This document shows, piece after piece, positions 11,157 to 30,003 of a stretch of 30,733 bases of DNA. This DNA is from a virus. The stretch is taken from positions 1 through 30,733 of the IMG/VR virus record IMGVR_UViG_3300031973_000285. One strand, written 5' to 3'. The first letter of the stretch is position 1; each line of letters opens with the position of its first letter. The position numbers and the translations under genes were made by a program. Below the pieces are notes generated by a model, which was given only the letters and a program-made list of their open reading frames with translations, did no database searches and was not told the origin of the DNA.

Positions 11157-11166
11157 GGTGAAAAGT

Positions 11167-12810: not shown

Positions 12811-15032
12811 TGTTTAGAGTTCACCAGCCCGCTAAGTCTTACTTTAGAAAACAGATTCAACCTGTCAGTGTAGCCTATATGCTTAGTGTAAAAAGTCCTT
12901 TAATAGCAAAAACTGCTTTTCAAAAGTTTAGAGGTATGCCGGGAGTAAGTCATCCTAAAGATTTCGTAGGTGTAGCACATTCTCCTTATCCAGAACATGC
13001 TATAACATCTGACATAAATACACCTGACCATCACCCTTTGATGCATAATCCAGAAACTGGTGAGTTGATTGGACTTTCTGCATTAAATCCTAAACCAAAG
13101 CATGGAGAAGCAGAGGGTATTAGTAGACATCCAATGGACTGGGCTATGAATGATTTAGATAAGAATTTTGGAAAGGGGGCTGGTAAAGCAATAATGAGAG
13201 AGGCAATTGCTTTGTATAATCAAAAGCACGACGATTATGGCGAAGGAAGTAATCATAAACTGCCAGAAGACCCCGAAGACCCTCTTTACAACAAGGTGTT
13301 TTTAGGACCACATTACAAAGATGATGTACAAACCCATATGAGGATGGTAAGAGGAGTTGATGAACTACCTGATGTAGGTCGGAGACCTGTGGTTACTTAC
13401 TCTACTAACAAATCAAATGTTGACCACCCTGCTGCTATGACTGGAGATATAGTTGACGGCGGCTTCATTCACTGCAATAAAGAAATAGGTGAAGTTTTGG
13501 CTAAGTATAATGTCGACCCTAAGTTAATTAATTCACTACCTTATGTAAGAAGAAATACTCTAAGGGCCCATGAAATGACAAATGGACTTGTTGATTCTTA
13601 CAATAAACATCAACTCGATGCCGCTTATAGGCATAACCAGATACCTACCCACATGATGCATCCTGAGCATAAAGCGGCTTTGGACTCGCAAAGGCAGCAT
13701 CCTGAGATACACATTCACCAAATCCCATCGTTGTTACCAAAGGCTTGGTTTTATCCCGCTATGACTAAAGGTGGTAAAGCGAAGGCTGTCGGTAAAAATG
13801 ACATAGGTAGGCTAAAATCCTTGTTAGACAACGCTGGTATAGATTCTGGAAAAATATCAGATGATTATTTGAATTTGTTAGCGACAACAAGAGCGTTTAG
13901 ACTTATGCTTGGTTATACTCAACCCTTCAAACATTATTCTAGGGCTTACGAAGAAGACGAGGGTCCTAAAGGCGCTCATTCTGCTGCTACTAAGTTAGGT
14001 GGAGCGATGCTCAGAGAATTAGGCGCTAATCCTGACCATGAAGACATGCACATATATACCAGCCAAGCAAAAGCAGGTATGATGAATCACGATTTAGATA
14101 TAAACCAACATGCTAACCATAGGGCCGCAGAGTTGGTTTCAAATATTTATTTTGTAATAGGTGAGAAAATGAAGAACGGTATGAGTCAAGAAGAGGCAAC
14201 GCTCGATACAATGAATCATTTAGAAGAAATGGACCTAGACCATGTGGGTAGACAAGACGCTTATCAACCACACCCTGATGAAAACTTTGGTGATACTGCA
14301 AAAGAAGTTTTGGAAATGATGTTAGGTCACACTGGTCATGAAGCGTTCCAGTTTGGTGATGTACCAACAGAAGCAATTACATCAGGTATACCTCAAAGTA
14401 TGCGAGAAGGCAATGCCCATTCTGCATTTGAAGAACACCATTATAGAAGAATGATAAACAGAAGTGACCTTGCTCCCCAAGCAAATACAGTGAGAACTGA
14501 ACCCATTGGCTTACCTCAAGCAGAGGCACCTCCTTTGGCTTCTGTTACTGAACCATTAGAGGCACCTGCCCCGCTTCCACCACCTGCTCCCCCTGTAGGA
14601 TTTGCGCCCGGACTAAGGCAAAGGCCTGCTAGTCCAGTTGAGAGTAGGTTTATTCAACAATACCCCGGCATGACCCAACCAGTGGGAGAGGGTAGAGTGA
14701 GTCGACAAACTATGTTTGACCCATTTACAGGTGAACTGATTACCACTTCTAACGATGTTCTCACAGGGCTCGATGATATTTTGAGAAAGATGGAACGAGT
14801 ACAGGCTCTTGATGCTATGCAAGACGATTCTGTAAGAAAACTACTTCCTTCTGACAAGGTATCAATCAATTCATTCTGGGATGTCCAAAGAGTCGCTAAG
14901 AGCCTAGGTATCACCAGTGTAGATGTTCACGGCTTATATCAAAGCACAGGTGATTGGCACAAGGTTGCTGACCAATGGAATGTAAAACCTGATGTAGTAA
15001 AGGCCGTCAAGATTGCTTTTGGGGGTGTTTGA
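12810..15032 (+). CDS. large His-rich hypothetical protein, 740 aa
   Basis: ATG 12810 shares a base with the previous TGA; GGGAG lies upstream. The protein is hydrophilic, unusually rich in His, Asp and Pro (TPDHHPLMHNPETGELIG, HPEIHIHQIPSLLPK), with no membrane segment. Residues about 560-620 are a Pro/Ala-rich linker (PPLASVTEPLEAPAPLPPP). The C-terminal 60 residues (FWDVQRVAKSLGITSVDVHG then GDWHKVADQWNVKPDVVKAV) look like two helical HTH-type units. No catalytic motif can be defended. Its style (long, acidic, His-rich) is like the giant 21783 protein. Location before the large terminase argues for a virion or packaging-linked function, otherwise unknown. Confidence 0.7.
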   Translation: MFRVHQPAKSYFRKQIQPVSVAYMLSVKSPLIAKTAFQKFRGMPGVSHPKDFVGVAHSPYPEHAITSDINTPDHHPLMHNPETGELIGLSALNPKPKHGEAEGISRHPMDWAMNDLDKNFGKGAGKAIMREAIALYNQKHDDYGEGSNHKLPEDPEDPLYNKVFLGPHYKDDVQTHMRMVRGVDELPDVGRRPVVTYSTNKSNVDHPAAMTGDIVDGGFIHCNKEIGEVLAKYNVDPKLINSLPYVRRNTLRAHEMTNGLVDSYNKHQLDAAYRHNQIPTHMMHPEHKAALDSQRQHPEIHIHQIPSLLPKAWFYPAMTKGGKAKAVGKNDIGRLKSLLDNAGIDSGKISDDYLNLLATTRAFRLMLGYTQPFKHYSRAYEEDEGPKGAHSAATKLGGAMLRELGANPDHEDMHIYTSQAKAGMMNHDLDINQHANHRAAELVSNIYFVIGEKMKNGMSQEEATLDTMNHLEEMDLDHVGRQDAYQPHPDENFGDTAKEVLEMMLGHTGHEAFQFGDVPTEAITSGIPQSMREGNAHSAFEEHHYRRMINRSDLAPQANTVRTEPIGLPQAEAPPLASVTEPLEAPAPLPPPAPPVGFAPGLRQRPASPVESRFIQQYPGMTQPVGEGRVSRQTMFDPFTGELITTSNDVLTGLDDILRKMERVQALDAMQDDSVRKLLPSDKVSINSFWDVQRVAKSLGITSVDVHGLYQSTGDWHKVADQWNVKPDVVKAVKIAFGGV

Positions 15033-16022
15033 TTGGACAAGGTGTTAGTTAAGAAATCAAACAACCAAGTCTTGGTTAAGAAGGCTGTCAGAGCAGTATA
15101 TCCTGTTAGTGGAGGTGGACCTGTAATGATGTTAGGCGGCGGTGGCGGCGGTGGCGGCCCTCGTGGTAGAACTCTAAGAGAGCGAGCAGGTGGTGCGCTT
15201 GGTGGTCTTGTAGGAGTCGCTGGAGCGCTTACTGGTTCGCATAGAAGTCTTGGAGGATTGGCTAATGCTATGGTTTCTGGAGGAGCAACGGGCTCTCAGT
15301 TAGGCAGCGCACTTGGTCGTACATTTGTTCGTAGAAGAGGGCAAGAATTGGCTAACTTAAAAGAGGCAGAAAAAAGAGAAAATGCAAGGCTTGCCGCTGA
15401 ACACAAATTAGAGTTTGGTGCTTCTGGATTCAGAGATAAACCGATAGCCGACCAAAGAAGAGCGTATCTAAGAGGAGTTGCTGAAAGACAAGCGGCGGAA
15501 AAGCAAAGTCAAAGAGAAGCAGATGCGGCTAGCACAGCATACGCCAGAACTTTCGGCTCAGAAAGAGGGGAAGAAGATAGAAACTATGCTGACATGATGA
15601 GACAGTTCGTTAGTGGAACGGGTATGGACCCTGCTAGAGCAGGTGAGTTTATGACTCAATTTGGTGAAAGAATAAATGTTATGCAAGAGCAACAAGCACC
15701 TAGTCAAGGTCAAAATGTTGCTGTAGTAAACCCCAATCAGGAAGATTCGGTAGACCAAAGGATGAAGGAAATGGCACAGTTACCACCTGCACAAAAATTC
15801 ATCCCTCCTTCTCAAGAGGCACTAGATGCAGGTCCCGGTGCTGAAATAGTTGATATCGAAGACCAATCAGTTAGTGAGAATGATGAGATATTAGAACGAC
15901 GATTGGCCAACATGCGACCACCTGAACAGGATGAAGAAGAGGAAGAACCAAAGAGGCCGCTTTTCTCTCAAGTAAGAGTCAGGCAGCAGGGACAAAGAAG
16001 TCTATTTGATAAACCGGAGTGA
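15033..16022 (+). CDS. Gly-rich, glycine-zipper protein, 329 aa
   Basis: TTG 15033 immediately follows the previous TGA, with GGGGGTG upstream; GTG 15042 is an alternative. The N-terminus contains a doubled phrase (KVLVKKSNNQVLVKKAV). Eight consecutive Gly follow (about 37-44), then an Ala/Gly-rich segment (GGALGGLVGVAGALTGSHRS, GGLANAMVSGGATGSQLGSA) with glycine-zipper spacing that may be membrane-active. The middle is a long Arg/Glu/Ala helix and the C-terminus is acidic (PEQDEEEEEPKRPLF) and ends QRSLFDKPE. It resembles the 5488 product in having Gly/Ala-rich segments, so the two may play related roles such as pore formation during genome delivery (inference). Family not recognised. Confidence 0.65.
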   Translation: MDKVLVKKSNNQVLVKKAVRAVYPVSGGGPVMMLGGGGGGGGPRGRTLRERAGGALGGLVGVAGALTGSHRSLGGLANAMVSGGATGSQLGSALGRTFVRRRGQELANLKEAEKRENARLAAEHKLEFGASGFRDKPIADQRRAYLRGVAERQAAEKQSQREADAASTAYARTFGSERGEEDRNYADMMRQFVSGTGMDPARAGEFMTQFGERINVMQEQQAPSQGQNVAVVNPNQEDSVDQRMKEMAQLPPAQKFIPPSQEALDAGPGAEIVDIEDQSVSENDEILERRLANMRPPEQDEEEEEPKRPLFSQVRVRQQGQRSLFDKPE

Positions 16023-16028
16023 TGAGAT

Positions 16029-17510
16029 GTGGAGGGTATCGATGAACTGGTCAGGGACATGGATGTGGAAATGTCCCGTAAGTCATTCGAGTACTTCTTC
16101 ACTGAAATCCTTGAATTCGAGTTCTCTGACCATCACAAAGACTGGTTGAAGGGCCTTAGTGAGAGTAAAAGATACTGTGTTAAAGCGAGCCGTGACCACG
16201 GCAAGTCTGTATTTTTCATGTCTTATGCGCTTTGGTTGGCCGCTTTCAAACCAAACACTCACATCATGATATTCAGTCACAGCCTTGAGCAGACGCTTGA
16301 ACACATGCGGTTTATCCGAAATAACATAGAAAGCGCTGACATTCTAAAAGGATTAAAACCTACGGGCAAGCCTTGGGCTAAATCTTACTTTGAGTTCACT
16401 AACGGTAGCCGTATGATGGCTAAGTCGGTTGGTGGTGCTACTCGTGGTTTCCACCCTGATGTAGTAGTATGTGACGATATTCTTTGGGGTACTACTAGTT
16501 CTGAGTTACAAAGAGCAGCCGACTGGTTCTATACTGTTTTACTTCCGGTTCTGCACCACACAGGTAGACTGATGATGGTCGGTACACCGTTTAGTTACAA
16601 CGATTTGTACGCTGAGTTAGAAGACAAGTCTGCATTTAGAGTCGAGACTTATCCGGCTATTTTACCTAATGGTGAACCACTTTGGCCTAGTCGTTGGCCA
16701 CTTGATGCTTTGAAAGTACGAGAAGATTCTATGCCAGCGATTAAGTTCGCTCGTGAATATTTGTGTGAACCTATCCACGATATGTCAAGTATGTTCCCGA
16801 TGACTTTGTTAGAAAAAGCCAGAGACAAAAATTTGGTACTGCTTGACAAAGCAGAAGAAGAGTTTGATGAAAATGGTCAATCATCTGGGGTATTTGGTCA
16901 GCACTTTGTAGGCTGGGACCCAGCGATTGCATCTGATTCTAACGCTGACTACACTGCTATGAGTGTACTTAGGGTGTTGCCGGGTAGTGAAGAAAAGCAA
17001 CTGGTGCATGTACTTAATCAGAAAGGGTTGAGTGGTGCTGCACAGAAAAGACAGGTCATCCTACTCAACAACAGATTCCAGCCTGACCTAATTGAACTTG
17101 AAGGTAATAACTTCCAGCGTATGTTTGCGGCTGAGTTGCAGGATATGCGAGGAGATATACCAATCAAGACATTCATGACTACAAGGCAAAAGAAAGAAAG
17201 TATGTTCATGTCTTTATTGATGGCCTTTGAACAAGGTCAAATCAAAACACCTTGGGGTGATGAAAAGAGCAAAGAGTTCACTCGCACTCTCGAAACACAA
17301 CTCAGTAGATTTGGTATGCAGAAGAATGGTAGACTAGAGTCTGTAGGTAGTCACGATGACTTGGCTATGAGTTTGGCTTTGGCTAATTGGGCCACTAAAG
17401 AGTTTAGGGGCTCTATCATCGCACTTGATGATTATCTTGAAGGCTTTGATGAGTGGTTCGGTGATGTATCGCAGAATAGAGTAGCGGGGGCTAGTTGGTT
17501 CACAATCTGA
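16029..17510 (+). CDS. terL: terminase large subunit (packaging ATPase-nuclease)
   Basis: 493 residues from GTG 16029, seven bases after the previous stop. The motor domain shows an atypical Walker A SRDHGKS (54-60) and a Walker B-type strand DVVVCDD (144-150), as in many viral terminases. The RNase H-like nuclease domain is intact: GWDPA with D297, ELEGNNF with a conserved Glu, and SHDDLAMS with D443/D444. The enzyme translocates DNA into the prohead and cuts concatemers, docking on the portal encoded downstream. Length is usual for the family. The next gene is separated from it by a TATA-like box, so transcription may restart there. Confidence 0.95.
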   Translation: MEGIDELVRDMDVEMSRKSFEYFFTEILEFEFSDHHKDWLKGLSESKRYCVKASRDHGKSVFFMSYALWLAAFKPNTHIMIFSHSLEQTLEHMRFIRNNIESADILKGLKPTGKPWAKSYFEFTNGSRMMAKSVGGATRGFHPDVVVCDDILWGTTSSELQRAADWFYTVLLPVLHHTGRLMMVGTPFSYNDLYAELEDKSAFRVETYPAILPNGEPLWPSRWPLDALKVREDSMPAIKFAREYLCEPIHDMSSMFPMTLLEKARDKNLVLLDKAEEEFDENGQSSGVFGQHFVGWDPAIASDSNADYTAMSVLRVLPGSEEKQLVHVLNQKGLSGAAQKRQVILLNNRFQPDLIELEGNNFQRMFAAELQDMRGDIPIKTFMTTRQKKESMFMSLLMAFEQGQIKTPWGDEKSKEFTRTLETQLSRFGMQKNGRLESVGSHDDLAMSLALANWATKEFRGSIIALDDYLEGFDEWFGDVSQNRVAGASWFTI

Positions 17511-17527: not shown

Positions 17528-17546
17528 CCAAAAAGTGGAGATAACT

Positions 17547-18854
17547 ATGTGGCCGAGTCTAGGAATTGGAAACTTTACTAAATCTGTTGACATGGGTCAC
17601 GAGACTTTGAACATCATTGCATCAAGCCTGACTACTCATCCTCATGTCGATGACAATGTTGCTAAGTCAATTGCTTCACAGACTGTAGTGTTCACTACAG
17701 AAAATGTACCTGAGACTGTATATGCACCATTTTGCATTACTGGTGAAGGATGGTTTGAGGACAGACTCGGTAAAAGCGCATCTGAGATTGTCAAAGAACT
17801 CAGAAAGGCCCGCAGGGTATTCAAAGAACATCGTGATGAAATTGACGATATCATAGACAATGTTCGTAAAATTAAGAGCATGGAAGTAGATGCAACTATC
17901 AAACAACTTGGTTGGGGGGCAGAATACGAGGAAGATATTAGAAAACTTGGTGTGAGTGAAAGGGATTTGAAATCACTAAGGTTGTTTGGTCAGACAAGAA
18001 AAAGTAGTTTATTAAGAGCCTGCAACTCTTGGGCAGCAGCAGAAGACGCACTTGCTAAGTTGGATGAGTTTGAGGATGTCTGGGGCGAAGAAGAAAAGTT
18101 TGCTTGGGTCAACGCTATGGAAATGAAGCAAGATGCTCGTAAGATGTGGAAGAATGCATTACATCAAATCGACAACCTTTCCAAAGAACAACAGAAATGG
18201 ATGAGATTAGCAAAGGAAGAAATCACAAATCACGGTTCTATTTCAGCCAGAGCAATCACTGAAAACCTTATCGAAAAGGGCGTACCTCGACTTAATTCTA
18301 ACAGACTATCCAAACTACTCAACATGTATGGTGAAGAAATAAACATCGTTAAGGCTCATCGAAAAGGCGAATACATGTGTTTGTCCAAGGAAGGTCTGAT
18401 AATCAAAGACCCTTGGGCTTATGCCGCAGGCTTCCTCGATGCTGATGGCTACATTACTATTACAGAAAGGGGCGAGCCTAGGGCTGGCTTCATTGCCACT
18501 GGTGACAGAGGTAAATTGCATTGTGAGCAATTGCATAAAAACATAGGTGCTGGTGTATTACAAGTTGACCAAAAAGTATACAGCGACGGTCAACGGAGCC
18601 AGCACCGTGTTAGTTTCTACTCCAAAGATGATTTGGCTAAATTACTGGACAAAATCACTCCTCATTTGCAGATGAAAGAGAGGCAGGCAAAGGCTGTCAT
18701 GGCTTTCATAGGTGAGAAAGACCCTGTAAGAAAAACTGAACTAAAGCGATTTGTTCAGTTCTCCAACAGAGACGGAACATCAAAAGGTGAGGAGTCTCTC
18801 CGAGAGTGGGGAGTAGACAGAGATACGGTCATGAGTTGGGCGGAGGGATTGTGA
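17547..18854 (+). CDS. LAGLIDADG homing-endonuclease-like protein with unknown N-terminal domain
   Basis: ATG 17547 (435 residues) is preferred over GTG 17535 because GGAG lies at the correct distance. The C-terminal third contains one LAGLIDADG helix, YAAGFLDADGYITI (about 290-303). It is followed by the expected beta-strands and helices (GAGVLQVDQKVYSDGQ, HRVSFYSKDDLAKLLDKI, MKERQAKAVMAFIG). One motif means it would act as a dimer. The N-terminal ~240 residues are helical and unrecognised; residues about 215-280 resemble a winged helix (ISARAITENLIEKGVPRLN). It sits between terminase and portal, a classic place for free-standing homing endonucleases. Domain call is solid; nuclease activity and target are not shown. 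Confidence 0.8.
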   Translation: MWPSLGIGNFTKSVDMGHETLNIIASSLTTHPHVDDNVAKSIASQTVVFTTENVPETVYAPFCITGEGWFEDRLGKSASEIVKELRKARRVFKEHRDEIDDIIDNVRKIKSMEVDATIKQLGWGAEYEEDIRKLGVSERDLKSLRLFGQTRKSSLLRACNSWAAAEDALAKLDEFEDVWGEEEKFAWVNAMEMKQDARKMWKNALHQIDNLSKEQQKWMRLAKEEITNHGSISARAITENLIEKGVPRLNSNRLSKLLNMYGEEINIVKAHRKGEYMCLSKEGLIIKDPWAYAAGFLDADGYITITERGEPRAGFIATGDRGKLHCEQLHKNIGAGVLQVDQKVYSDGQRSQHRVSFYSKDDLAKLLDKITPHLQMKERQAKAVMAFIGEKDPVRKTELKRFVQFSNRDGTSKGEESLREWGVDRDTVMSWAEGL

Positions 18855-20623
18855 TGGCAGAAGAAAAAGGTAGAATTGGTAGATTCCTTGAATCATTGGC
18901 TAACCCGTTTAGAAGAAGGAGTACTCCAGCGCCGCAGATGCCGCTTTGGACTACAGGGATTCAAGAGCCTGTATTAGCACAGGGTATTACTATACCAGCG
19001 CTTTATGCAGTAGCCAATGAAAATCTGATATTGAGAACAGTGTTGTCTACCTTGCAACAAGAGATATTCCGTAGAGGTTACTATTGGGAAAAGAAATTTC
19101 ATAAGAAGTGTACATCTTGTGACGCTGAGTTTCAACATGATGTTAAGGAGTGTAAAGAGTGCGGCGATACTGAATTAGTCGGACCAGACCCAGAGCAACT
19201 AGTTTATCCAAGGTGGTTATTAGACCAAAGAAACTCTATGGAACAGTCTTTCATGGATGTGCTTAGAGAGATAGAATACGATTTGAATATTACCGATGAT
19301 GGGTTTTTGATACTTATCAAAGAGTATTACATGGACCCAGAAACAAATGAGTTGGCTTTCTATAGAATCAAAGAGATTGTCAGAGGCGACCCTATCTTTA
19401 TGCGAATTATTGCTGATAAGCGTGGAGTAAGAGGTGGTCGTTTCAAGGTATGCCCTATTCATCGTGACGAAGTTAAGTCTTATTCTGGCGAAGAAAAGAG
19501 TTGTGGTGTATGCGGGCATGAATTAGAAGATGTACATCATGTCAATACAGCAGGTTCTGGTAAGACACAGTACTATCTCAAAGGAGAAGTCATACATGTA
19601 AGTAAATACAATCCTAGTAAACTGTATGGTCGAAGCCCTGTATCCACCCTTTGGCGACAGGCCATGACTTTAACAGCGATGGACAACTACATGTACACCG
19701 CTTATTCAAAGCGTAGAATACCAAGAGGTATATTGAGTGTTACTACTGACAATCTTGAATCTATGAAGTCATTTTTCAAGTCAACCGACGAAAAGTTAGA
19801 GCGTGACCCGCATTACATACCTAAGATTGGTATTGAATCTGGTAGCGGTAGAGGTGGTATCAACTGGGTTAAGTTGATGGATAGCCTTGAAGAGATGCAG
19901 TATATTGCAGCCAGAGATGAGATGCGACAAAGAATCGCTGCTTTCTATGGTGTATCTAATGTATTCATGATGGACACTGGTAAATCTGGTGGACTGAATA
20001 ACGAAGGTATGCAGATACTGGTGACTAACAGGGCGGTTGAATTTGGTCACAAGGTATACACTGACCATCTATTCCCAATGCTAGTGGAACAAATGGATGT
20101 CAGTGATTGGCAACTTACACTATATCCGAATGAAGAAGAGGATGAAGTTACTCGATTACGCCGTGACGAAATGGAAGTTAACATTGCACAAAGAATGATG
20201 ATGATGGGTTACAAACCTGAACTCAAGGAAGATGCTAACCGTGACATCCGATTCATTTACAAGCAACCAGACCCGAATGACCCTGCTCAACAACCACCAC
20301 CTCCGGGCGGTATGCCTCCGGGTGGAGTGCCGATGGGCGGTATGCAGATGGGTGGCGGCATGGGTACACCGGGCGCTTTGCCAAGTCGAAACATTAGTCC
20401 ACAGGGGGCGGCTATGCTTGGCAGACAAGCACAGATGGGTATGGGGCAACCCGGTGGAGAAGGTGCAGGTTTGAGAAACAGGGGTCCCGCAAGTCCTCAA
20501 AACAGAACTAGCATGGGTGCAGGTGCACCGATGTCAAGCGTTCAGCAAAGAGGCCCTCAACCTAGTGGAATTCAGCAGGCGAGTCAAAGTATAACCAATG
20601 CTCGTAATCCTAGAGGGGCTTAG
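18854..20623 (+). CDS. portal protein with zinc-knuckle insertions
   Basis: ATG 18854 shares one base with the previous TGA and has GGAGGG upstream, so 589 residues is the best reading. The segments PWFTTGI-like start, YGRSPVSTLWRQAMTL, then a central helix and FYGVSNVFMMDTGKSGGLNN are typical of phage portals (the last is the clip/stem-adjacent region). The portal forms the dodecameric ring for DNA entry and terminase docking. Unusual: two Cys clusters, C86-x2-C89-x10-C100-x2-C103 and C200-x2-H203-x13-C217-x2-C220, lie within the N-terminal half and look like zinc knuckles. The last ~110 residues are Gly/Met/Pro/Gln-rich low complexity. Family call is by overall pattern and context. Confidence 0.85.
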   Translation: MAEEKGRIGRFLESLANPFRRRSTPAPQMPLWTTGIQEPVLAQGITIPALYAVANENLILRTVLSTLQQEIFRRGYYWEKKFHKKCTSCDAEFQHDVKECKECGDTELVGPDPEQLVYPRWLLDQRNSMEQSFMDVLREIEYDLNITDDGFLILIKEYYMDPETNELAFYRIKEIVRGDPIFMRIIADKRGVRGGRFKVCPIHRDEVKSYSGEEKSCGVCGHELEDVHHVNTAGSGKTQYYLKGEVIHVSKYNPSKLYGRSPVSTLWRQAMTLTAMDNYMYTAYSKRRIPRGILSVTTDNLESMKSFFKSTDEKLERDPHYIPKIGIESGSGRGGINWVKLMDSLEEMQYIAARDEMRQRIAAFYGVSNVFMMDTGKSGGLNNEGMQILVTNRAVEFGHKVYTDHLFPMLVEQMDVSDWQLTLYPNEEEDEVTRLRRDEMEVNIAQRMMMMGYKPELKEDANRDIRFIYKQPDPNDPAQQPPPPGGMPPGGVPMGGMQMGGGMGTPGALPSRNISPQGAAMLGRQAQMGMGQPGGEGAGLRNRGPASPQNRTSMGAGAPMSSVQQRGPQPSGIQQASQSITNARNPRGA

Positions 20624-20652
20624 GAAGTTTAAAGTCAAGGAAGGTAGTGGAG

Positions 20653-20997
20653 ATGAGCATGGACCTGAGAAAATTGGACCCAATGGCTAGAAAAATGCGT
20701 ACTCATGTAGACGCATTTTACAAAGCGCTAGACGAGAATGATGGCTTTTCTGCAAGAAATCACATCAATGAAATTGTGAAATATGCAGATTACCTAAGCA
20801 GTGATGTTGAGTCTGCTGTAATGAAGCAAGACGATTCTATTCAAGGAGTCAATGACATCTACGCTGGCGGAGTACCCATCATGAAAATGTCAGAAGTCGA
20901 GACTGTTCACAAGGCAGAAGCAAATGTTTTGCCGGGAACAATCAGAACTTCTCGCTTTGGAAATATCAACCGCAGACTATCAAACCGTACACTTTGA
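20653..20997 (+). CDS. small hypothetical protein next to portal, about 114 aa
   Basis: Three in-frame starts compete: GTG 20647, ATG 20653 and ATG 20659. GGAAGG upstream favours the first two, GTGGAG the last; I list ATG 20653. The product is helical and moderately charged (LRKLDPMARKMRTHVDAFYK, NHINEIVKYADYLSSDVESA). It ends with VETVHKAEANVLPGTIR and a basic tail. The phrase HKAEANV resembles the L-x-K-A-D/E phrases of the capsid and protease. It lies between portal and the giant protein in the head-gene cluster, so an assembly or connector role is plausible. No family recognised. Confidence 0.65.
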   Translation: MSMDLRKLDPMARKMRTHVDAFYKALDENDGFSARNHINEIVKYADYLSSDVESAVMKQDDSIQGVNDIYAGGVPIMKMSEVETVHKAEANVLPGTIRTSRFGNINRRLSNRTL

Positions 20998-21006
20998 GGT
21001 GAGTAA

Positions 21007-21378
21007 ATGAGCGACGAGGGGGAGAATGTTGCTGAGAAACTCATGGGTGCTCTCATCACTAAGATGGAAAGCATGGATGCAGGTTTACAGATGTTGAAAG
21101 CAGAAAATGCAGAATTGAAGAAAGCACTTACTAATCCTGCAAGTCTTTTGAGAAAGGCTGGATTTGTATCTGCTAGAAATCGTATGCCAGAGGATGTCAT
21201 GCCTGACACCTTTAGAGGAGATGCTGACGATGTACTTCTGAAAGGAGACAACGGAGAGCCTTTGAGCATACCCAAAACCAACGCTGACTTCCACAGCATG
21301 GATTGGGCAGATATACACGCACTTGCTGAGCAAGCAAAATCAGAAGGTGCAATTGGAAATGAATTAGGAATGGATTAA
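21007..21378 (+). CDS. small scaffold-like protein sharing a C-terminal motif with the protease
   Basis: ATG 21007 with GAGGTGA just upstream; 123 residues. The N-terminal half is a coiled coil (AEKLMGALITKMESMDAGLQ, MLKAENAELKKAL). After LLRKAGFVSARN the chain is acidic and flexible. Near the C-terminus it has IPKTNADFHSMDWADIHALA (M98, W100, H104), which matches IPSTEALGSMSWDEVHRLA at the end of the prohead protease/scaffold protein. Coiled coil plus shared end-motif suggests that it joins the procapsid scaffold or binds the same capsid surface (inference). I do not recognise a named family. Confidence 0.7.
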   Translation: MSDEGENVAEKLMGALITKMESMDAGLQMLKAENAELKKALTNPASLLRKAGFVSARNRMPEDVMPDTFRGDADDVLLKGDNGEPLSIPKTNADFHSMDWADIHALAEQAKSEGAIGNELGMD

Positions 21379-21379
21379 G

Positions 21380-21766
21380 ATGAAACCTAGATTTGAACCT
21401 AGAGAGCCAGAAGTTGACAGATTGCTAAAAGAAGCAAAGAAGTTAGAAGAGCGTATTGCTAAAGCAGAGCCTAATTATTCTGGACAAAAAGAAGGCTCAA
21501 AAGAAGGCTACGCTCGATTTGAGGCACAGCCGTCTGGTGTACCTAATGCTTTTTACAACACAAACAATGTACTACTTGACGGGGTAGAAGATGTTGCTAA
21601 CAAAGGTGCAATATCAGAAAGCAGTGATGTCTTGACGAGAACTTCACCTTACTACCCGACTGCTTTCAGTACAACAGGGGCTCTTGAAAACTTCAAAGGT
21701 GGTGACGGTCCAACCTTAACAGAATTGAAGAAGTCTATTGACCGACTATCCAGCCGTCTAAATTGA
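21380..21766 (+). CDS. small hypothetical head-region protein, 128 aa
   Basis: ATG 21380 follows the previous TAA by one base; a purine-rich stretch (TAGGAATGGA) could serve as ribosome site. The N-terminus is a charged helix (PEVDRLLKEAKKLEERIAKA) ending in an L/I-x-K-A-E phrase. The centre is a Gly/Asn/Ser-rich region with a few hydrophobic strands (GVPNAFYNTNNVLLDGVEDV). The C-terminus is a short coiled coil (LTELKKSIDRLSSRLN). Nothing enzymatic is seen. Position in the portal-to-capsid interval suggests an assembly or minor head protein. Unrecognised family. Confidence 0.65.
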   Translation: MKPRFEPREPEVDRLLKEAKKLEERIAKAEPNYSGQKEGSKEGYARFEAQPSGVPNAFYNTNNVLLDGVEDVANKGAISESSDVLTRTSPYYPTAFSTTGALENFKGGDGPTLTELKKSIDRLSSRLN

Positions 21767-21782
21767 ACGGCTGGTGGTATGG

Positions 21783-24700
21783 ATGATAGAAGGTCACTAC
21801 GATACCTTTGATAGGGCTAAGTTTACCTTCATAGAATCTATTTACGACGGTATAGGTAAAGCAGATGCTGCTGCCGAATACTACTTTGCTAGTCTTAACT
21901 TACAAAGACACGGCTATGATTTGAACAATCAAGACGAAACATTGCTGAAAATGGCGAATATTATTTTGAAAGAAGAAGTAGATTTAGAGCCAGATGAGGC
22001 AATACATGACCCTTGGTTCCCGCAATCTCAATACTTTACTGGTGAAGAAACGGTACAGAATCCTTCTTTACAGCCTTCGAGAGTCGTCGCACCTGAGCCG
22101 GGTCAACCTTTCACTGGTGCTAATATCCAAATGAATCCGGGTGACCCTAACAGTGATTCTCATCATGACATTGATTACTTTGGTTCAAGTCTGTTTCCTT
22201 TACACGGCGACAAAATGGCTGACCATGTTGCTGGTTTTTATTTAGGTGATAAATATGATGAAAAAACCCATTCTGAAAAATCAGCACATGTAGAAAATAA
22301 GTTCTTCAACAACCATACAACTCCTAATGAAGAAGAGCACCTTGAAAGTAGTTTTCTAACTGATAGGGCTCACTATGGAAAGTTAGCCGATGATATGACT
22401 AATCATGATATCTATCAAAGGCACTTTGATGATTGGAAAAGAAAGAATGACCCGTTAGTAAGATTAATGACTGAACAAATGCATGCACAAGGTGTATTTG
22501 ATGATGAAGAAATAAATCACAGACTTGCTATAAAGCATATGGAGGAAGCCAAAGAAGGTTGGAAGGACAATCTAAAGTTTACTGATTACCTGCTTGGCTT
22601 GGAATGGACAACGCCAGAGGAGCGACAAAAGTTATATGAGCATCTTATAAAACACGGTGGTAGTAAAAAAGATACCCCTTTAAAACTTAGAGGTGGTAAT
22701 GATTGGATGCCTAGATTGATTGCTAATTTCCATCAAAGATTTGGACCTATATACGACCATTGGATAGGTAAGGCTCACATACCGGGCTTCAATACTAAGG
22801 CTAGGAAAGAAAGAATGCCATCTAAAGGTAGAGAGCCGGGTCCGATGGAAAATAAAGAAGCATTCAGTGCAGTAGGACAAGATGGTTTTCAAAGAGCCTT
22901 AGAATACGCTCAGCAAATGGGAGCATTGGATGAAGAATTAGATGTAGGTAAAATACCTTTTCTTCAAGAAGATACTACTGATGATGGTAAGTATGTTGTA
23001 AGAGGTCTGCAACTTAGAAAGCCGACTAGAAAAACAACTGAAATGGTTGGGGAAACAGCAGGTTCTGATTATAGAACTTTACTTGCTTTGCTAGGTGCGG
23101 ATGAAAATGGTAAATTACATGCTGCTGGCCAACATCCTCTTTACAAAGAAAATTGGAACCCAGAAGAAGGGCCATTTACTCAAGAAGAAGTTGATAAAAT
23201 ATTAAGAAAACGACTTTCTTTAACAAGGTCTATGTTTCCGGGTATTATAGGTAGAAGAGAAAGTAATGTGATGTATGCTCCTTATTTAGATGAGGATGAT
23301 TATTATGATTATACTGATGGTTTAAGTCATGATTCTTTAGCAACTTATTGGGGTATTCCTTTCAAGGTTGGTGGTATGGATAAGCATCCTCAACTACTAT
23401 TTGAGTTACTTCATCGGGCGACTTTACTTCATGGTAAAAATCATTTTGTCCCTCCATCTAAGCGGATAAAAGAACAAAGTCCTACCTCAGAAGACATCTA
23501 TGAAACTGCATTTACCGAAATGGCAGAAGGGCCCAAAGAAATGGATACTGGGCCTTATGGCGAAGATTACCCAATCGACCAAGTAACAACAGACCATGAT
23601 GGTTACGAACACAGTCTTTTCTTCATGCATCATCCAGAAAAAAATAAATTAACTCATAGGTATATGTTAGAATTAGACTCTGATGACCATTTAGAAAACA
23701 ACATGGCTAACTTCCTTGCTCCTTTTGCACCTAGACCATTAGAAATTGTGGAGTCTAAATTTAACAAGGATGATAAAAGAAATTTACAATTAGACTTAGG
23801 CAATCCCCTTTGGTCAATTAATATCCATTCTCCCGGTTCTGCTAATCGTCGTAATGAAGCAATAGGTATTAATAATAATTTTAGTCGACATGCACAGTCG
23901 CTTGCCCCGGCATTGACTAATAAACTGTTATTAGATGATAAATTAGCAACCGACAGAACAGACGACTCTTATTCAGAAAATATAAATTCTAAATTAATAG
24001 GAAATAAGGCTGGTCACTTTAAGGTACATCACCCTTTTACTTTTCACGGTGGTCACGACCCAGACGCTCGAATGAAAGATTCTTCTTTATATGGTGCAAT
24101 TATAGCAATGCATAAGCATTTGTCTGGCCTTCCGGGTACACCCATAGATATAGGTGGTAGAATTCCTGAAAAAAATTTACCTATGAGCAAGGATAATTAT
24201 ATTCAGTTGACCAATCCAGAAAATTATGAACATATGACTTCTGCAAACCGAAAAAGAGCAAAGGAATTGGAAAGGAGAATAAAGGAATTAGAATTTCAAG
24301 CCCCTGACTTTGAAGGTGATGCTAGTCAAATAATTGAAAACAAAATTATTGATTTGGAAGAACAGTTATCGATGATTCCTACAATTGACCCCAAAGAATT
24401 TGGAAGTCAAAACTTTGTACCTACACATATTCAGATGTTGAAGGACAAGTTAAATTCTGATGACCAAGCCTATGCACAATTAGCAAAACGAAAAGCCGCT
24501 GAGTTTCCAGAACTATTTGATAGAAGTCTACCTCCAGACATAATCGAGGGCAACCTAAGACAGTTTGCTCGAATGCTAAATGATTATTTCCATCAGGCTC
24601 CATCAGAAGCACACGGCTTGAGTTCGCTTGCATCAGTTGACAAATTAAGTGATGCAGAGATGCAACGAAGTAATCCTATGGCGGAATCTGCTAAAGACTT

Positions 24701-27389
24701 TGCTCACAACAGCGATGTCAAGTTTAGTTATGTTGACTTTCTAAGGGGTGGCGCAAATCGAGAGCGTTACGCTGCAAAGTTAGCAGAAGATTTGGGTTTA
24801 AATCCAGAGGACTTCCACACTCAACAAACCATGAAACATTTTCTCGAAGATGTAGTGAACCCCATCATAGACGGTATGCTTAGTCAGGGAAGGGATGATG
24901 AATTATTTGATTTGGAGATTCCAATTCAAACCGTTGGTAACTTCGCTAAACATCACTTTAAAATGGCAGATATAGATTTTAATAAAACACTTGAAGATAT
25001 GAGAAGAACTCGTGGTTTTAAAGATAAAGGTAAAGACCTAAAAAGAATAACTGCTCAAATTAAACAACAATTATTACCGCACATAATAGGTGGTGGTGGA
25101 AAAGAAAAAAGAGGGAATAAAGGTAGAAATGACGCACTAGGTATGGGTATTCATCATTCTGTTAATCCTGATGCAAGAATGCTTGCAGATTATAAGGAAG
25201 AGTTAACAAGATTACAGACATTAAGAGATAAAGCGTTTACTGGCCCTGCTAAAAATAATGCAGTTATGCAATATAACAACTACAAAGATAACATGATTAA
25301 ACCTACTTTAGGTTCAGCCATGTCTAAGAATAAAGCAAAAATACAACAAAGACATGCTGAAATGTATGGTCCTTCTTATGTTAGTGGTAGACATTTTCAA
25401 AGTGTTAATGAATCTTATAGAATGCAACAAACCTTAGATTCTCTAATTTATAGTGACCCGTTTATTGAGCCCGGTGCTGCTCCTTCTTCTGTAGAAAGTT
25501 TTGAAAGCGGGTCAGAGGTCAGGCCAATAGAGCCAGTTGGACCTAACGCTACAAATATAGTCCCTTCCACTTATAATGCTCCCAAATATATGATGAGTTA
25601 CGGTCATAAAGTACCTGTTACCTTTGATTACAAGATAGGTAAAGACGGGAAGATAGATATAATCCCACTACCTGAACCCAAACGAGAAAGGTTAGTTCAA
25701 CCGACAATGGCTATATGGGGGGCAGCAGGTTTGACTGATGTATTATTTGGAACTGATTGGAGACAATATCATATAGATGAAGACCAGTCTACTTTGTCAA
25801 GACATGGTAGGAAAGAAGATAATAGAGCCTTCGCTAAGTCAGAAGATGTCAACTTGGCAACACTTACCAATCCTGACATCATCCGTAAAGAGATAGGTAA
25901 AGGTGTTCCTATCCTACAACCGATGCATCGTATTTTTGAATTGGATGACCTTGAACATCTGCGTGGCTTTACAGGAGACTGGATAGTATCTGTTATGCCA
26001 GAAGGCGAAAGAGGCTTTGTCAAGAAAGAAGATGATGATGTTACTTCAACTAACTTTACTTTGTCAGATGAAGACAAGAGCAACTTCAAGAAAGTAACTG
26101 ATAACGATTATCATTTAGATGTGTTTAAGACCGAAGAGGGCTACTATATCTTTGATGTTCTCAAATATGACGACAAAGAAGTGCATGATGTACCTATAGA
26201 TGACCGAATTAAGATACTTAGAGGTGGCTTGGAAGGTGTTGAGAATGTTCATGTTCCGAGTGCTAGTGATACCAGACTTACAGATGACGCTGGTCTCAAA
26301 GTCACAGTAGAGGACTTGCAGAAAGAAAATGAAAAGTTGCTACTTCGTGATGCTAAGTCAACCTACATGGCTGGTGAACTGCGCCATCCTAAGTGGGTGC
26401 TGCTCAGTCCGGGCAATGATGTTGTGCTTAGAGTATTAGAAAGAAGAGGCAACGGCCCTTACACCTATCGATTAGGTACTGGCCCAGTTACTAAAGACGA
26501 AGAGTTAGGTGATAGGGCAGTAGAATCTGATGGTGAGATTTACATGGATGTCGGTGCTGCTTTCGACAGTGATGAAAAGTATAACGAAGGCGACCATGTT
26601 AGAGTCAATGTCAGTAATGTAGGCGAGTCAGAAACAGCCGAAGGGCAAAAGTTGTTTACTGTAGCGGGTTCTAAAATTGAAGAAGAAGCCGAGGGCGAAG
26701 GACTCGTTAGCCAAGAAACTCTCAGCCTACTTGCTAAGGCAGAAGATTCGCAGTGGCTGTGTGAAGTCTATAGAGCAGGTAGCGGTATAAGAGTAGTTAT
26801 GCCACAGGGTGATGTCGTATACAAGTGTACACAGTCAGGTCAGTCTTGGACAGCGCACAGCCCGTTGGCATCTAATGGTTATCTGATTCGTATGTCTGAA
26901 AGTCAAAGACCTTACTGGGCACCAGTCGCTGGTGCTTTACTCAAGGCCGATGTACAGATAGCCGCACCTGCCGAAGAACAAGAGGATAAGGCTGAGGTTC
27001 ACGAAACAGAGGGTCGAGGGAAGCCTCTCATCCCTCCTAAAAAGATTAAAGATTCTGAATGGTGGGCTAAGCAAGAAAAAGAAAAAGTGCTTGTCAAGGG
27101 CTTACAGTTAGTAGAAAAGTTGCTCAAAAGCGGAGCAGGTGCCGTAGGTCAATCAAGTAGTGGTACTAAGGGATTAGGTATTGACTACGCTACCCCTATA
27201 GAATCACCTATGGGACCTACTAACTTACATGACAAGAAGACAATGCCTGATTATGATGTTAGGGATATGGAAGAAGATTCTTCTATAGATGAAGAAACTG
27301 AGGCAAAAGACAAGCCTAAACACATGACTGTGCCTACAGATAAGGGTGTTTTGGAAATAACAGAGGACTCTGCTGTTTTCCGTACTTAG
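21783..27389 (+). CDS. giant virion-type protein with degenerate DNA-ligase-like domain
   Basis: ATG 21783 (1868 residues) is preferred because GGTGGT lies four bases upstream; GTG 21774 is in frame. Residues 1-1370 are hydrophilic, His/Asp/Pro-rich and unrecognised. Residues about 1376-1600 resemble the nucleotidyltransferase plus OB core of ATP-dependent DNA ligases. PILQPMHRIFELDDLEHL, GDWIVSVMPEGERGFVKK (motif I region), HLDVFKTEEGYYIFDVLKYD (III/IIIa-like) and DAKSTYMAGELRHPKW (IV-V-like) appear in the right order. The motif I lysine is not present (M1405 aligns there) and D-G reads E-G, so catalysis is doubtful. The C-terminus has SLLAKAED, ALLKADVQ and acidic stretches. It lies between portal and protease, where phages place assembly or virion genes. 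Ligase likeness is an inference from motif order. Confidence 0.75.
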   Translation: MIEGHYDTFDRAKFTFIESIYDGIGKADAAAEYYFASLNLQRHGYDLNNQDETLLKMANIILKEEVDLEPDEAIHDPWFPQSQYFTGEETVQNPSLQPSRVVAPEPGQPFTGANIQMNPGDPNSDSHHDIDYFGSSLFPLHGDKMADHVAGFYLGDKYDEKTHSEKSAHVENKFFNNHTTPNEEEHLESSFLTDRAHYGKLADDMTNHDIYQRHFDDWKRKNDPLVRLMTEQMHAQGVFDDEEINHRLAIKHMEEAKEGWKDNLKFTDYLLGLEWTTPEERQKLYEHLIKHGGSKKDTPLKLRGGNDWMPRLIANFHQRFGPIYDHWIGKAHIPGFNTKARKERMPSKGREPGPMENKEAFSAVGQDGFQRALEYAQQMGALDEELDVGKIPFLQEDTTDDGKYVVRGLQLRKPTRKTTEMVGETAGSDYRTLLALLGADENGKLHAAGQHPLYKENWNPEEGPFTQEEVDKILRKRLSLTRSMFPGIIGRRESNVMYAPYLDEDDYYDYTDGLSHDSLATYWGIPFKVGGMDKHPQLLFELLHRATLLHGKNHFVPPSKRIKEQSPTSEDIYETAFTEMAEGPKEMDTGPYGEDYPIDQVTTDHDGYEHSLFFMHHPEKNKLTHRYMLELDSDDHLENNMANFLAPFAPRPLEIVESKFNKDDKRNLQLDLGNPLWSINIHSPGSANRRNEAIGINNNFSRHAQSLAPALTNKLLLDDKLATDRTDDSYSENINSKLIGNKAGHFKVHHPFTFHGGHDPDARMKDSSLYGAIIAMHKHLSGLPGTPIDIGGRIPEKNLPMSKDNYIQLTNPENYEHMTSANRKRAKELERRIKELEFQAPDFEGDASQIIENKIIDLEEQLSMIPTIDPKEFGSQNFVPTHIQMLKDKLNSDDQAYAQLAKRKAAEFPELFDRSLPPDIIEGNLRQFARMLNDYFHQAPSEAHGLSSLASVDKLSDAEMQRSNPMAESAKDFAHNSDVKFSYVDFLRGGANRERYAAKLAEDLGLNPEDFHTQQTMKHFLEDVVNPIIDGMLSQGRDDELFDLEIPIQTVGNFAKHHFKMADIDFNKTLEDMRRTRGFKDKGKDLKRITAQIKQQLLPHIIGGGGKEKRGNKGRNDALGMGIHHSVNPDARMLADYKEELTRLQTLRDKAFTGPAKNNAVMQYNNYKDNMIKPTLGSAMSKNKAKIQQRHAEMYGPSYVSGRHFQSVNESYRMQQTLDSLIYSDPFIEPGAAPSSVESFESGSEVRPIEPVGPNATNIVPSTYNAPKYMMSYGHKVPVTFDYKIGKDGKIDIIPLPEPKRERLVQPTMAIWGAAGLTDVLFGTDWRQYHIDEDQSTLSRHGRKEDNRAFAKSEDVNLATLTNPDIIRKEIGKGVPILQPMHRIFELDDLEHLRGFTGDWIVSVMPEGERGFVKKEDDDVTSTNFTLSDEDKSNFKKVTDNDYHLDVFKTEEGYYIFDVLKYDDKEVHDVPIDDRIKILRGGLEGVENVHVPSASDTRLTDDAGLKVTVEDLQKENEKLLLRDAKSTYMAGELRHPKWVLLSPGNDVVLRVLERRGNGPYTYRLGTGPVTKDEELGDRAVESDGEIYMDVGAAFDSDEKYNEGDHVRVNVSNVGESETAEGQKLFTVAGSKIEEEAEGEGLVSQETLSLLAKAEDSQWLCEVYRAGSGIRVVMPQGDVVYKCTQSGQSWTAHSPLASNGYLIRMSESQRPYWAPVAGALLKADVQIAAPAEEQEDKAEVHETEGRGKPLIPPKKIKDSEWWAKQEKEKVLVKGLQLVEKLLKSGAGAVGQSSSGTKGLGIDYATPIESPMGPTNLHDKKTMPDYDVRDMEEDSSIDEETEAKDKPKHMTVPTDKGVLEITEDSAVFRT

Positions 27390-27397: not shown

Positions 27398-27420
27398 TAT
27401 GAGTGTCGTCTATAGAAACG

Positions 27421-28821
27421 ATGACAGCCAGTTCGATGCTGAGAACCTCTCCGGTTACTCACAATGGTAGCATCAATTTAATCAAGGCTGATAATGACTT
27501 GGTAATCGCTGGATACGCATCTGTTGAGATGGTAGATAAGCAAGGAGATTTGATTACCAGAGGTGCCTTGAAAAATGCTTTTGGCGACTTCATGAAAGCA
27601 GACGGCTACCGAAATGTACAACTTGCTCACTCAAACATACAAGTTGGAAGTGTTATTCCATCTTACACTGACTCTGATGGTAGAGTTTGGAAATCCGGTG
27701 TCGATGATGCTGGTATGTTCGTAGTCATTAAACTACGAGATGACATAGAAAAGGCAAGAGAAGTTGCCAAAGAGATTCGCAAAGGAGCCCTTAGAGGTTT
27801 CAGTATTGGAGGACAAGCATTCAAGAGAATGCGAAAGAGTGACCAACAACATGGTGACTATACAGAAATCTCCAAACTGGAACTACATGAGGTCACCATT
27901 TGTGAAAAAGGTATTAACCCGGAGGCGACATTCCGTATATTGAAGGAGGATATTGATATGACAGAAACAGATGCAATGGCAGAATTGTCAAGTGTGTTGG
28001 ACAGACTAAATGGCCGCCTAGACGCAATGGAGAAGGGCGAAATGCCAGCAGGTCTTAAAGAACACATGGAAGACAAAAAAGACGATAAAGACGAAAAAGA
28101 CGAGGCGAAAGAAATGGCTGATAAAGATGAAGAAGAGAAAATGTACGGCGCTGACCACAAAGGCGAACATGACGGAATGGCAAAAGGAGAATACTCCGAT
28201 GTTATTTCTAGTGAATACCTAAACTGGATGGAAAACACCTTGAAATCACAAGGTGTCGACATTAGCGGTGCAAGAAACCACTTTGATGGAATCTCTAAGG
28301 CTAATCTAGGTAGCACACCAGAACAAATTGGTGACGGTGCTGATTACTTCGCTGGACAAGTAAAGGGTCGAGCCCAAGAAGGTGGCTCTCCTTCTACTAA
28401 CGCAGTCGGTAAAATTAACTCCGGTGGCGGTGGAACAGTAGCAAAAGGATACTTGCACCCAAGTGCAGTCTCTCCTACTGATGTAGAAGCAGCCTACGAA
28501 GTTTACAAAGCAGCGGCTCTTGAAGAACAATTCAAGCACAACCTAAGCGGCGTATTCGCTGACAGACTAAACAAAGAACTTACTCAAGAAGCACAAGCAA
28601 GAGAAGCCGCTTCCTTTGACGCAAGAACACCTCTTGCTAACATCGAAAAGGCTCTGTCTGACTTGAGCAACAGAATCGATAACATTTCAAGCGCTGCCCC
28701 AGAATCAACAATTCGTAAGAGCAGTGATATGGCTAATGTAGAAATCCCATCTACTGAGGCACTTGGAAGCATGAGTTGGGATGAAGTTCACCGACTCGCA
28801 GGGAGTGTATTTACCAACTAA
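27421..28821 (+). CDS. prohead protease fused to scaffold domain
   Basis: Start uncertain: GTG 27403, ATG 27421 or ATG 27436, none with a ribosome site; ATG 27421 gives 466 residues. Residues about 20-145 are an HK97-type (U35/S78-like) prohead serine protease. VIAGYASVEMVDKQGDLI opens the fold, QLAHSNIQVG carries the catalytic His (H70) and LRGFSIGGQAF the nucleophile Ser (S128). The remaining ~300 residues are acidic and helical (long Lys/Asp/Glu tract, then coiled coils), as expected for a scaffold removed during maturation. The C-terminus has the SMSWDEVHRLA motif shared with the 21007 protein. It directly precedes the capsid gene, the usual order. Confidence 0.9.
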   Translation: MTASSMLRTSPVTHNGSINLIKADNDLVIAGYASVEMVDKQGDLITRGALKNAFGDFMKADGYRNVQLAHSNIQVGSVIPSYTDSDGRVWKSGVDDAGMFVVIKLRDDIEKAREVAKEIRKGALRGFSIGGQAFKRMRKSDQQHGDYTEISKLELHEVTICEKGINPEATFRILKEDIDMTETDAMAELSSVLDRLNGRLDAMEKGEMPAGLKEHMEDKKDDKDEKDEAKEMADKDEEEKMYGADHKGEHDGMAKGEYSDVISSEYLNWMENTLKSQGVDISGARNHFDGISKANLGSTPEQIGDGADYFAGQVKGRAQEGGSPSTNAVGKINSGGGGTVAKGYLHPSAVSPTDVEAAYEVYKAAALEEQFKHNLSGVFADRLNKELTQEAQAREAASFDARTPLANIEKALSDLSNRIDNISSAAPESTIRKSSDMANVEIPSTEALGSMSWDEVHRLAGSVFTN

Positions 28822-28833: not shown

Positions 28834-30003
28834 ATGGCAAGAAATTATATGAGAACAGTAAATGATATGGAGCGCTACTACTACGGTGCTGGACAAAGCA
28901 TGGGATATTCCTACACAGGTTCAGAACTATTGAAAGCAGATGCTCCTCTATTGAGCACAACAGCAGGAACATACCAAGCAATCTACGGTAGAAAAGTATG
29001 GAGTCAGTTGAACCAAGAGTTCAACGCTTTCTCTATCCTACCTAAGAAGCCATGGGACAGAAGTGGATGGCGTGTAGTAACCGCTAAGCCTTCTGCTACC
29101 GTTGGCGGTGGAATTGCAGAGAACGGTACTCTACCTGAAACTCAAAAGCCAACTTTCCAAAATGTTGCAGCAAAGCCAAAAACCGTTGCTCACTCATTCG
29201 ACATGTCTGAAGTAGCAATCTTCCTTAACGACAAGGATGACGGTCTAGGTGACATTCGCTCAGTATTGAAAGAAGAAATGGGCAAGCACCACGCAGAGAT
29301 GATTAACAAGATGCTACTTAGAGACGCTGACAACCCAGCAGGTAATGATATCGAGTCACTTGACCGTGTCACCGCTGGTCACGCTGGTGGTCTAACTACC
29401 AGTACAAGTGCAATTGCAGACGCAACAGGTCACCTCAGCGCAGCAACTGACTTAGATATCTATTCAATAGACCGTGAGGCTAACGCATCATGGGCTAACG
29501 CTGAGATGTCAGTTAACGGTGTTGCTGGTACCCCTACCAACAGAACTCTATCTCTCGACCACTTTGATGAACTATTCAGAAAGATTTGGCAGAGAGGTGG
29601 AAATCCAAAGGTTATGCTAACTGGATATGATACTTTAATGAGACTTCAACAACTACTACAAAGCCAACAAAGATTCATGGAAGAAAAGAGAGTAGTCCCA
29701 ACTTACAACGGTGTTAAAGGTGTACCGGGTATGGAAGCAGGTTTCATTGTAGCAACTTACAATGGCGTACCTATCATTCCATCCAAGGATGTCGAAGCAG
29801 ACGGAATTAGCAGAGTTTACATGCTAGATACTGACTACCTATACTACAGTACTGCTAAGCCTACACAATACTTTGAGTCCGGTATCGAGACTGGTGACCC
29901 ATTCGCAATCAACAGATTGGGTCAGGAAGGTCTTTACCGAACCATGGGTGAGATATGGACAACTTTCTTTGGAGGTCAAGGTTCTATTCGTGACCTACAA
30001 TGA
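28834..30003 (+). CDS. HK97-fold major capsid protein
   Basis: 389 residues from ATG 28834. Context (right after protease/scaffold, strongest ribosome site) and sequence features support the call. There is an N-terminal arm of about 35-40 residues ending SELLKADAPLLSTTAG, then FSILPKKPWDRSGWRVVTAK and GGGIAENGTLPETQKPTF, which correspond to the N-arm/E-loop region of HK97-like capsids. Later come the spine helix (DIRSVLKEEMGKHHAEMINK), a P/A-domain segment (NPKVMLTGYDTLMRLQQLL) and a terminal strand-rich part ending EIWTTFFGGQGSIRDLQ. K34-A35-D36 is a candidate maturation cleavage site because a similar phrase occurs in the protease. Cleavage is inferred. Confidence 0.85.
   Translation: MARNYMRTVNDMERYYYGAGQSMGYSYTGSELLKADAPLLSTTAGTYQAIYGRKVWSQLNQEFNAFSILPKKPWDRSGWRVVTAKPSATVGGGIAENGTLPETQKPTFQNVAAKPKTVAHSFDMSEVAIFLNDKDDGLGDIRSVLKEEMGKHHAEMINKMLLRDADNPAGNDIESLDRVTAGHAGGLTTSTSAIADATGHLSAATDLDIYSIDREANASWANAEMSVNGVAGTPTNRTLSLDHFDELFRKIWQRGGNPKVMLTGYDTLMRLQQLLQSQQRFMEEKRVVPTYNGVKGVPGMEAGFIVATYNGVPIIPSKDVEADGISRVYMLDTDYLYYSTAKPTQYFESGIETGDPFAINRLGQEGLYRTMGEIWTTFFGGQGSIRDLQ

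Follow-up and report, generated by a model that had tools for sequence, protein, structure and literature searches.

In the head-gene region of a virus, one gene encodes a very large protein with a segment that resembles an ATP-dependent DNA ligase, and the question is whether a working ligase is present there or whether its fold has been kept for another purpose. The window analyzed here is the whole 30,733-nucleotide stretch of the IMG/VR record IMGVR_UViG_3300031973_000285.

Gene Neighborhood and Domains of the Giant Protein

The genes of the head module and the domains at the C-terminal end of the giant protein are as follows.

16029..17510, + strand, terminase large subunit (TerL; PF17289/PF03237)
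18806..20623, + strand, portal protein (PF04860, E=9.7e-12)
20647..21766, + strand, three small ORFs from portal to giant ORF (20647-20997, 21007-21378, and 21380-21766), order conserved
21774..27389, + strand, giant ORF of 1871 aa, GTG start as listed, pseudo-ligase in the C-terminal third
25905..26417, + strand, degenerate adenylation-type nucleotidyltransferase (NTase) domain, residues 1378-1548 (PF01068, hhalign to archaeal ligases, AlphaFold model, Foldseek)
26418..26693, + strand, OB-like beta domain, residues 1549-1640 (strands in the model, Foldseek alignment)
26694..26978, + strand, extra C-terminal alpha/beta domain, residues 1641-1735 (conservation, model)
27403..28821, + strand, prohead protease of the S78 family, beginning 13 bases past the giant ORF (PF04586, E=2.8e-11; synteny)
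28834..30003, + strand, major capsid protein (MCP; PF17236, 33% identity to Druskaviridae MCPs)

With an HNH-like ORF (17535) added between TerL and portal, this is the full gene order of the module. The order TerL, portal, three ORFs, giant ORF, protease, and MCP recurs in the clades examined, and in nearly every locus where this part is visible, the giant ORF is followed directly by the protease gene. The placement between portal and protease genes, which was part of the original prediction, therefore holds in these clades as well. Most full-length relatives of the giant protein have a length of ~1800-2040 aa. The protein is a product of the morphogenesis module, probably a minor head protein proximal to the portal, and gene order is the basis for considering it a possible virion component.

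No PHROG family matches the giant protein convincingly, and the giant proteins from three further clades showed no other convincing Pfam domain. The C-terminal domain (residues 1641-1735) is conserved and has no family match. No RNA elements were found in the 30.7-kb window. Among the remaining ORFs, the 439-aa frame at 17535-18854, in the terminase/portal interval, matches a PHROG HNH endonuclease (E=3.4e-9), and two small ORFs at 3318-3650 and 4730-5272 match DUF6321 (E=4.5e-16) and DUF5872 (E=1.3e-11), respectively. Upstream of the terminase (11158-16022), there are three sizeable ORFs of 550, 740, and 329 aa, of which the first is rich in Pro, Met, and acidic residues; none of the three has a Pfam or PHROG match.

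Evidence for a Ligase Fold

The Pfam DNA ligase family PF01068 matches the window's own record with E=1.4e-7 (E=1.6e-4 for the whole giant protein, below the gathering score) and all 59 of the 59 nonredundant relatives scanned, whereas Phage_SSB (PF16773), found in four of the 59 and absent from ten scanned singly, was given no weight. The leading NCBIfam matches are ATP-dependent DNA ligase families. When a profile of 165 relatives was compared through hhalign with archaeal ligases drawn from Thermococci and DPANN genomes, an E-value of 1.3e-8 was obtained. The alignment runs without gaps between the "PM" element and the Arg of motif I, with ...PMHRIF...GDWIVSVMPEGER placed over ...PMLAQM...EAEFEIKYDGAR, and it pairs the viral segment with the PM...KYDGAR of the ligases.

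The structural evidence points in the same direction. An AlphaFold model built from 59 diverse sequences reached a pLDDT of 84.2 and superseded an earlier, poor model from 23 similar sequences (pLDDT 57). The top Foldseek match in the PDB is the DNA ligase of Pyrococcus furiosus (2cfm, E=3.7e-11, TMq 0.53), and the 50 best PDB matches consist of DNA ligases and the human mRNA guanylyltransferase. The number of columns aligned with the P. furiosus ligase is about equal to the whole model, and the OB-like region that had been proposed to follow the NTase domain is included. The superpositions are loose, with an rmsd above 7 Å over all domains, as is expected if the orientation of the domains differs. 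In the viral fold library (BFVD), a single 827-aa protein precedes a list composed mostly of DNA ligases. This protein, A0A516LT18, fits the fold of residues 1373-1727 far better than any other entry (E=1.3e-22, 24% identity), and A0A516LST7, of a similar accession, is also a fold match.

Profile comparison and structure prediction, two of the checks proposed with the original prediction, thus both returned a ligase fold, and together with the Pfam matches they indicate that the likeness is not due to chance. On sequence and model evidence, residues 1378-1640 are assigned to an ATP-DNA-ligase NTase plus OB-like fold, with a core which, judging from the profiles, is related to archaeal-type ligases.

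Loss of the Catalytic Residues

The remnants of the ligase motifs were located as follows.

25995..26012, + strand, motif I remnant M-P-E-G-E-R, residues 1408-1413, with M1408 at the site of the adenylated lysine (ungapped profile alignment)
26118..26126, + strand, motif III remnant D-V-F, residues 1449-1451, Asp kept and Glu gone
26139..26168, + strand, motif IIIa-like GYYIFDVLKY, residues 1456-1465 (relatives' alignment, profile alignment)
26331..26348, + strand, motif IV remnant (..LLLR), residues 1520-1525, Glu not conserved and Lys replaced by Arg
26394..26408, + strand, motif V remnant W-V-L-L-S, residues 1541-1545, replacing W-L-K-x-K

The three segments that had been pointed out in ligase order are all found inside the giant ORF, namely the motif I segment VMPEGERGFVKK (residues 1407-1418, 25992-26027), the GYYIFDVL.. 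segment (residues 1456-1474, 26139-26195), and DAKSTYMAGELRHPKW (residues 1526-1541, 26349-26396). The last one had been taken for motifs IV-V; the segment is present, but motif IV proper lies at residues 1520-1525, immediately before its DAKSTYM, and motif V corresponds to W1541-S1545. Similarly, a Met does occupy the lysine site, but the residue is M1408 and not M1405.

In order to follow these positions among relatives, the best 80 sequences were taken from each of the IMG/VR scans, which gave about 400 relatives, and 165 distinct sequences were compared. Position 1408 is W in 75, M in 51, F in 15, Y in 14, and L in ten of them, and the catalytic lysine is missing from all 165. The register of motif I is fixed because the motif is otherwise canonical in intermediates of the types F-Y-D-G-E-R and W-Y-D-G-x-R. 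The Asp of motif III is kept in 164 of the 165 sequences, and the site of its Glu (position 1451) is occupied by I, V, F, T, A, or L, never by E or D. In motif IV, position 1520 is variable and position 1525 is R in 161 sequences and K in four. The first Lys of motif V (position 1543) is L, M, or V without exception, and the second is R in 107, K in 24, and S, Q, or another residue in the rest. Inspection by eye recognized no motif VI in residues 1549-1640.

An unusual ligase or nucleotidyltransferase might still be active, either through another nucleophile or by carrying out only the later steps on pre-adenylated ends. A candidate nucleophile exists in one clade, in which a lysine stands one residue before the motif I site (position 1407, KWYDG; 77 of the 165 relatives) and Y-D-G-x-R is kept. 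A nucleophile that has migrated to this position is unlikely because the other catalytic residues have been lost in the KWYDG clade too, including the Glu of motif III, the first Lys of motif V, and, in the sequences with Arg, the Lys of motif IV. The clade to which the window belongs mostly has V, H, A, I, D, or L at position 1407, and in the window itself the first lysine near motif I is K1417. Continued activity is thus considered improbable. An unrooted tree built from 73 sequences requires one change each for the KWYDG and xYDG forms of the motif and two for the xPEG form.

The domain seems to retain its fold but, with the nucleophile and most of the other catalytic residues gone, would no longer be able to form lysyl-AMP.

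Selection and Retained Residues

The pseudo-ligase domain is under strong purifying selection. Pairwise dN ranges from 0.06 to 0.16 in the NTase domain, whereas the N-terminal 1300 residues of the giant protein give 0.41-0.75. The dN/dS ratio, where computable, is 0.03-0.07 versus 0.13-0.34 in the N-terminal part, values which are rough as dS is near saturation. Alignment columns within the domain have a mean identity of about 0.8, and those upstream mostly 0.4-0.6. In the pairs tested, this is the slowest-evolving part of the giant protein, and dozens of its residues are invariant across all clades. If the domain were no more than a ligase remnant joined to a head protein and carried along neutrally, as filler or by hitch-hiking, the lost catalytic residues would be accounted for, but hardly such conservation; this reading is very improbable.

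Residues R1413, R1478, R1483, R1525, D1526, R1537, K1540, and W1541 are invariant (97% or more). The invariant basic set within the old catalytic motifs comprises R1413, R1478, K1480, R1483, R1525, R1537, and K1540, and it fits with a phosphate-binding pocket that may have been retained.

Ligase cores bind nicks and ends. The NTase-OB core could therefore serve in the head as a DNA-end-binding or architectural clamp, which would surround or cap the ends of the packaged DNA and carry out no chemistry; the persistence of basic residues in the old motifs and the position of the gene in the packaging/head module are in favor of this possibility. However, in the window's protein the net charge is -15 in the 171 aa of the NTase domain (-8.8 per 100 residues) and -12 in the 92 aa of the OB-like domain (-13 per 100 residues); no whole window protein for which charge was computed is as acidic as either domain. 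A general DNA-binding clamp is weakened because the domain is strongly acidic in the window's lineage, and the window's giant protein shows no match to a DNA-binding family. Net charge is close to zero in the KWYDG and xYDG clades, which is easier to reconcile with such a clamp. On balance, this role is regarded as doubtful.

Identity of the Viruses and the Published "Ligase"

The window is a 30.7-kb piece with no replication module, and the traits of the virus were thus read from its relatives. PolB is present in 16 of 17 relatives' records and a chaperonin in all 17, with records of up to 109 kb that include the head module. Both genes are traits of the magroviruses of Poseidoniales (PMC10768690, PMC5332604). 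The relatives combine a genome of 90-110 kb, PolB, a chaperonin, and a head-tail module, and the viruses carrying the domain look like magroviruses (order Magrovirales). In two records (L012 and L035), PolB is divided between a 471-aa and a 349-aa frame (G002:73771-74918, G005:29184-30328), which resembles the PolB-NTD/CTD arrangement given in a figure legend for YSH_150918. In one record (L006), the chaperonin gene is in two neighboring frames of 414 and 111 aa (G001:33582-34998), either as a split gene or through an assembly error.

Within 39 records, 16 of which are of 90 kb or more (up to 109 kb) and any of which may be incomplete, the sole PF01068 match is the giant ORF. NAD-type ligase (PF01653) was searched for in 17 of these records and RNA ligase (PF09414) in 16 of them, and neither was found, so the search for a second, intact ligase that the original prediction had called for returned none in the records searched. 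The lack of another ligase in viruses that encode their own PolB would suit a still active enzyme, a reading that the residues described above make improbable.

ATP-dependent DNA ligase is nevertheless stated to be encoded by the Aoguangviridae magroviruses (PMC10768690) and the Apasviridae (PMC12999244), and almost all magrovirus vOTUs are said to carry a DNA ligase (PMC10160649). One sentence of PMC7318539 describes a 678-base read that runs across part of the "ATP-dependent DNA ligase" gene and part of the prohead protease gene in the group A magrovirus contig_156409. The same arrangement is seen here at the junction of the giant ORF and the protease gene (27389/27403). Because the published gene abuts the prohead protease gene in that sentence, and with no other candidate in the records, the magrovirus "ATP-dependent DNA ligase" of the literature is probably this pseudo-ligase. 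The published gene is described as a replication/repair enzyme, whereas in the present case the domain is without the catalytic residues and belongs to the morphogenesis module.

In the literature found, which did not extend to the original 2017 magrovirus paper, the domain is nowhere described as inactive. What is new here is a known ligase fold which appears to have lost its activity and is well conserved. Magroviruses have been described as nearly independent of the host in replication, partly for encoding DNA ligase in "almost all" of them (PMC10160649, PMC10768690, PMC12999244). If the ligase in question is the lysine-less domain of the head module, these viruses can no longer be credited with a ligase of their own and need that of the host. 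Homologues were not found in cultured phages by tblastn, and none was confirmed in 84,980 prokaryote genomes; the latter fits the lytic life proposed for magroviruses.

A Proposed Recognition Module in the Head and Its Counterparts

The best explanation, with a probability of roughly 0.78 as a whole, is that a giant protein of the head module carries a pseudo-ligase kept as a recognition module, and that this is probably the ligase of the literature. The ligase fold would be kept as a fixed module, and the former active-site pocket, lined by the invariant Arg and Lys residues, may hold a ligand such as a nucleic-acid end, a nucleotide, or a phosphorylated or acidic partner. By this means, the module could dock or orient the giant protein during head assembly, packaging, or ejection. 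Strand joining would play no part in its role, and nick sealing in these viruses is probably left to the host ligase, a dependence that is probable because the published gene is probably this pseudo-ligase. A more specific version, in which an entire order of archaeal viruses has recruited a dead ligase core as a receptor in the virion for packaged genome ends or another 5′-phosphate ligand, in packaging or ejection, is put forward only tentatively. The carriers belong to a group that ranks among the most abundant of the archaeal viruses in the sea, and the domain is a clear and testable target.

Archaeal/eukaryal-type ATP-dependent DNA ligases (PF01068, TIGR00574; P. furiosus 2cfm, Thermococcus sibiricus 4eq5) have in common with the viral domain the NTase plus OB fold, the motif order, the "PM" element, the G and R of motif I, the Asp of motif III, motif IIIa, and the R..W before motif V. 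In contrast, the viral domain is without the adenylated Lys, the Glu of motif III, and the first Lys of motif V, and it has Arg for the Lys of motif IV. It also has about 31 residues fewer between motifs III and IIIa and no recognized N-terminal DNA-binding domain, and it is fused into a head-module protein.

Snurportin-1 is a eukaryotic protein with an NTase-type domain that lacks the lysine and binds the m3G cap (PF21974, PDB 1xk5), and a cap- or nucleotide-recognition module analogous to it could be envisaged here. The snurportin-1 segment EWIVVVCPVGKRALIV aligns with the viral DWIVSAMPEGERAFVK (E=0.12), pairing CPVGKR, with C at the lysine site, with the MPEGER of motif I, where M takes this place, and extending to motif IIIa. 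The PF21974 profile gave weak matches (best E=0.0062), none of them significant, with a best score of 17 bits against a cut-off of 27. Ligases are matched far better in both sequence and fold, snurportin is missing from the 50 best PDB fold matches, and the likeness may reflect convergent loss. Snurportin-1 is a nuclear import adaptor in eukaryotes, a role with no place here. The analogy is thus unlikely to extend to the ligand; in its logic, a recognition module of the kind preferred here would be comparable to snurportin, as an example of a ligase fold strongly selected without its chemistry.

Among cultured viruses, the most similar MCPs are those of the Druskaviridae (33% identity, e.g., HVTV-1). 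In their portal-protease slot, Mu-F-like proteins are accompanied by giant zeta-toxin/ADP-ribosyltransferase proteins (HVTV-1 gp115, HCTV-1 gp109), which are likewise large and contain an enzyme-like domain; the fold of this domain is different, however, and no similarity in sequence to the giant protein of the magroviruses was detected. Candidate homology of the giant protein to proteins of HVTV-1, HCTV-1, or vir519 was rejected (best E=0.13). Enzyme-like domains in large head-module proteins may be recurrent in archaeal tailed viruses. The zeta-toxin domain is found in the giants of both HVTV-1 (L162:8539-12480) and HCTV-1 (L164:9744-13376), and that of HVTV-1 has an ADP-ribosyltransferase domain in addition.
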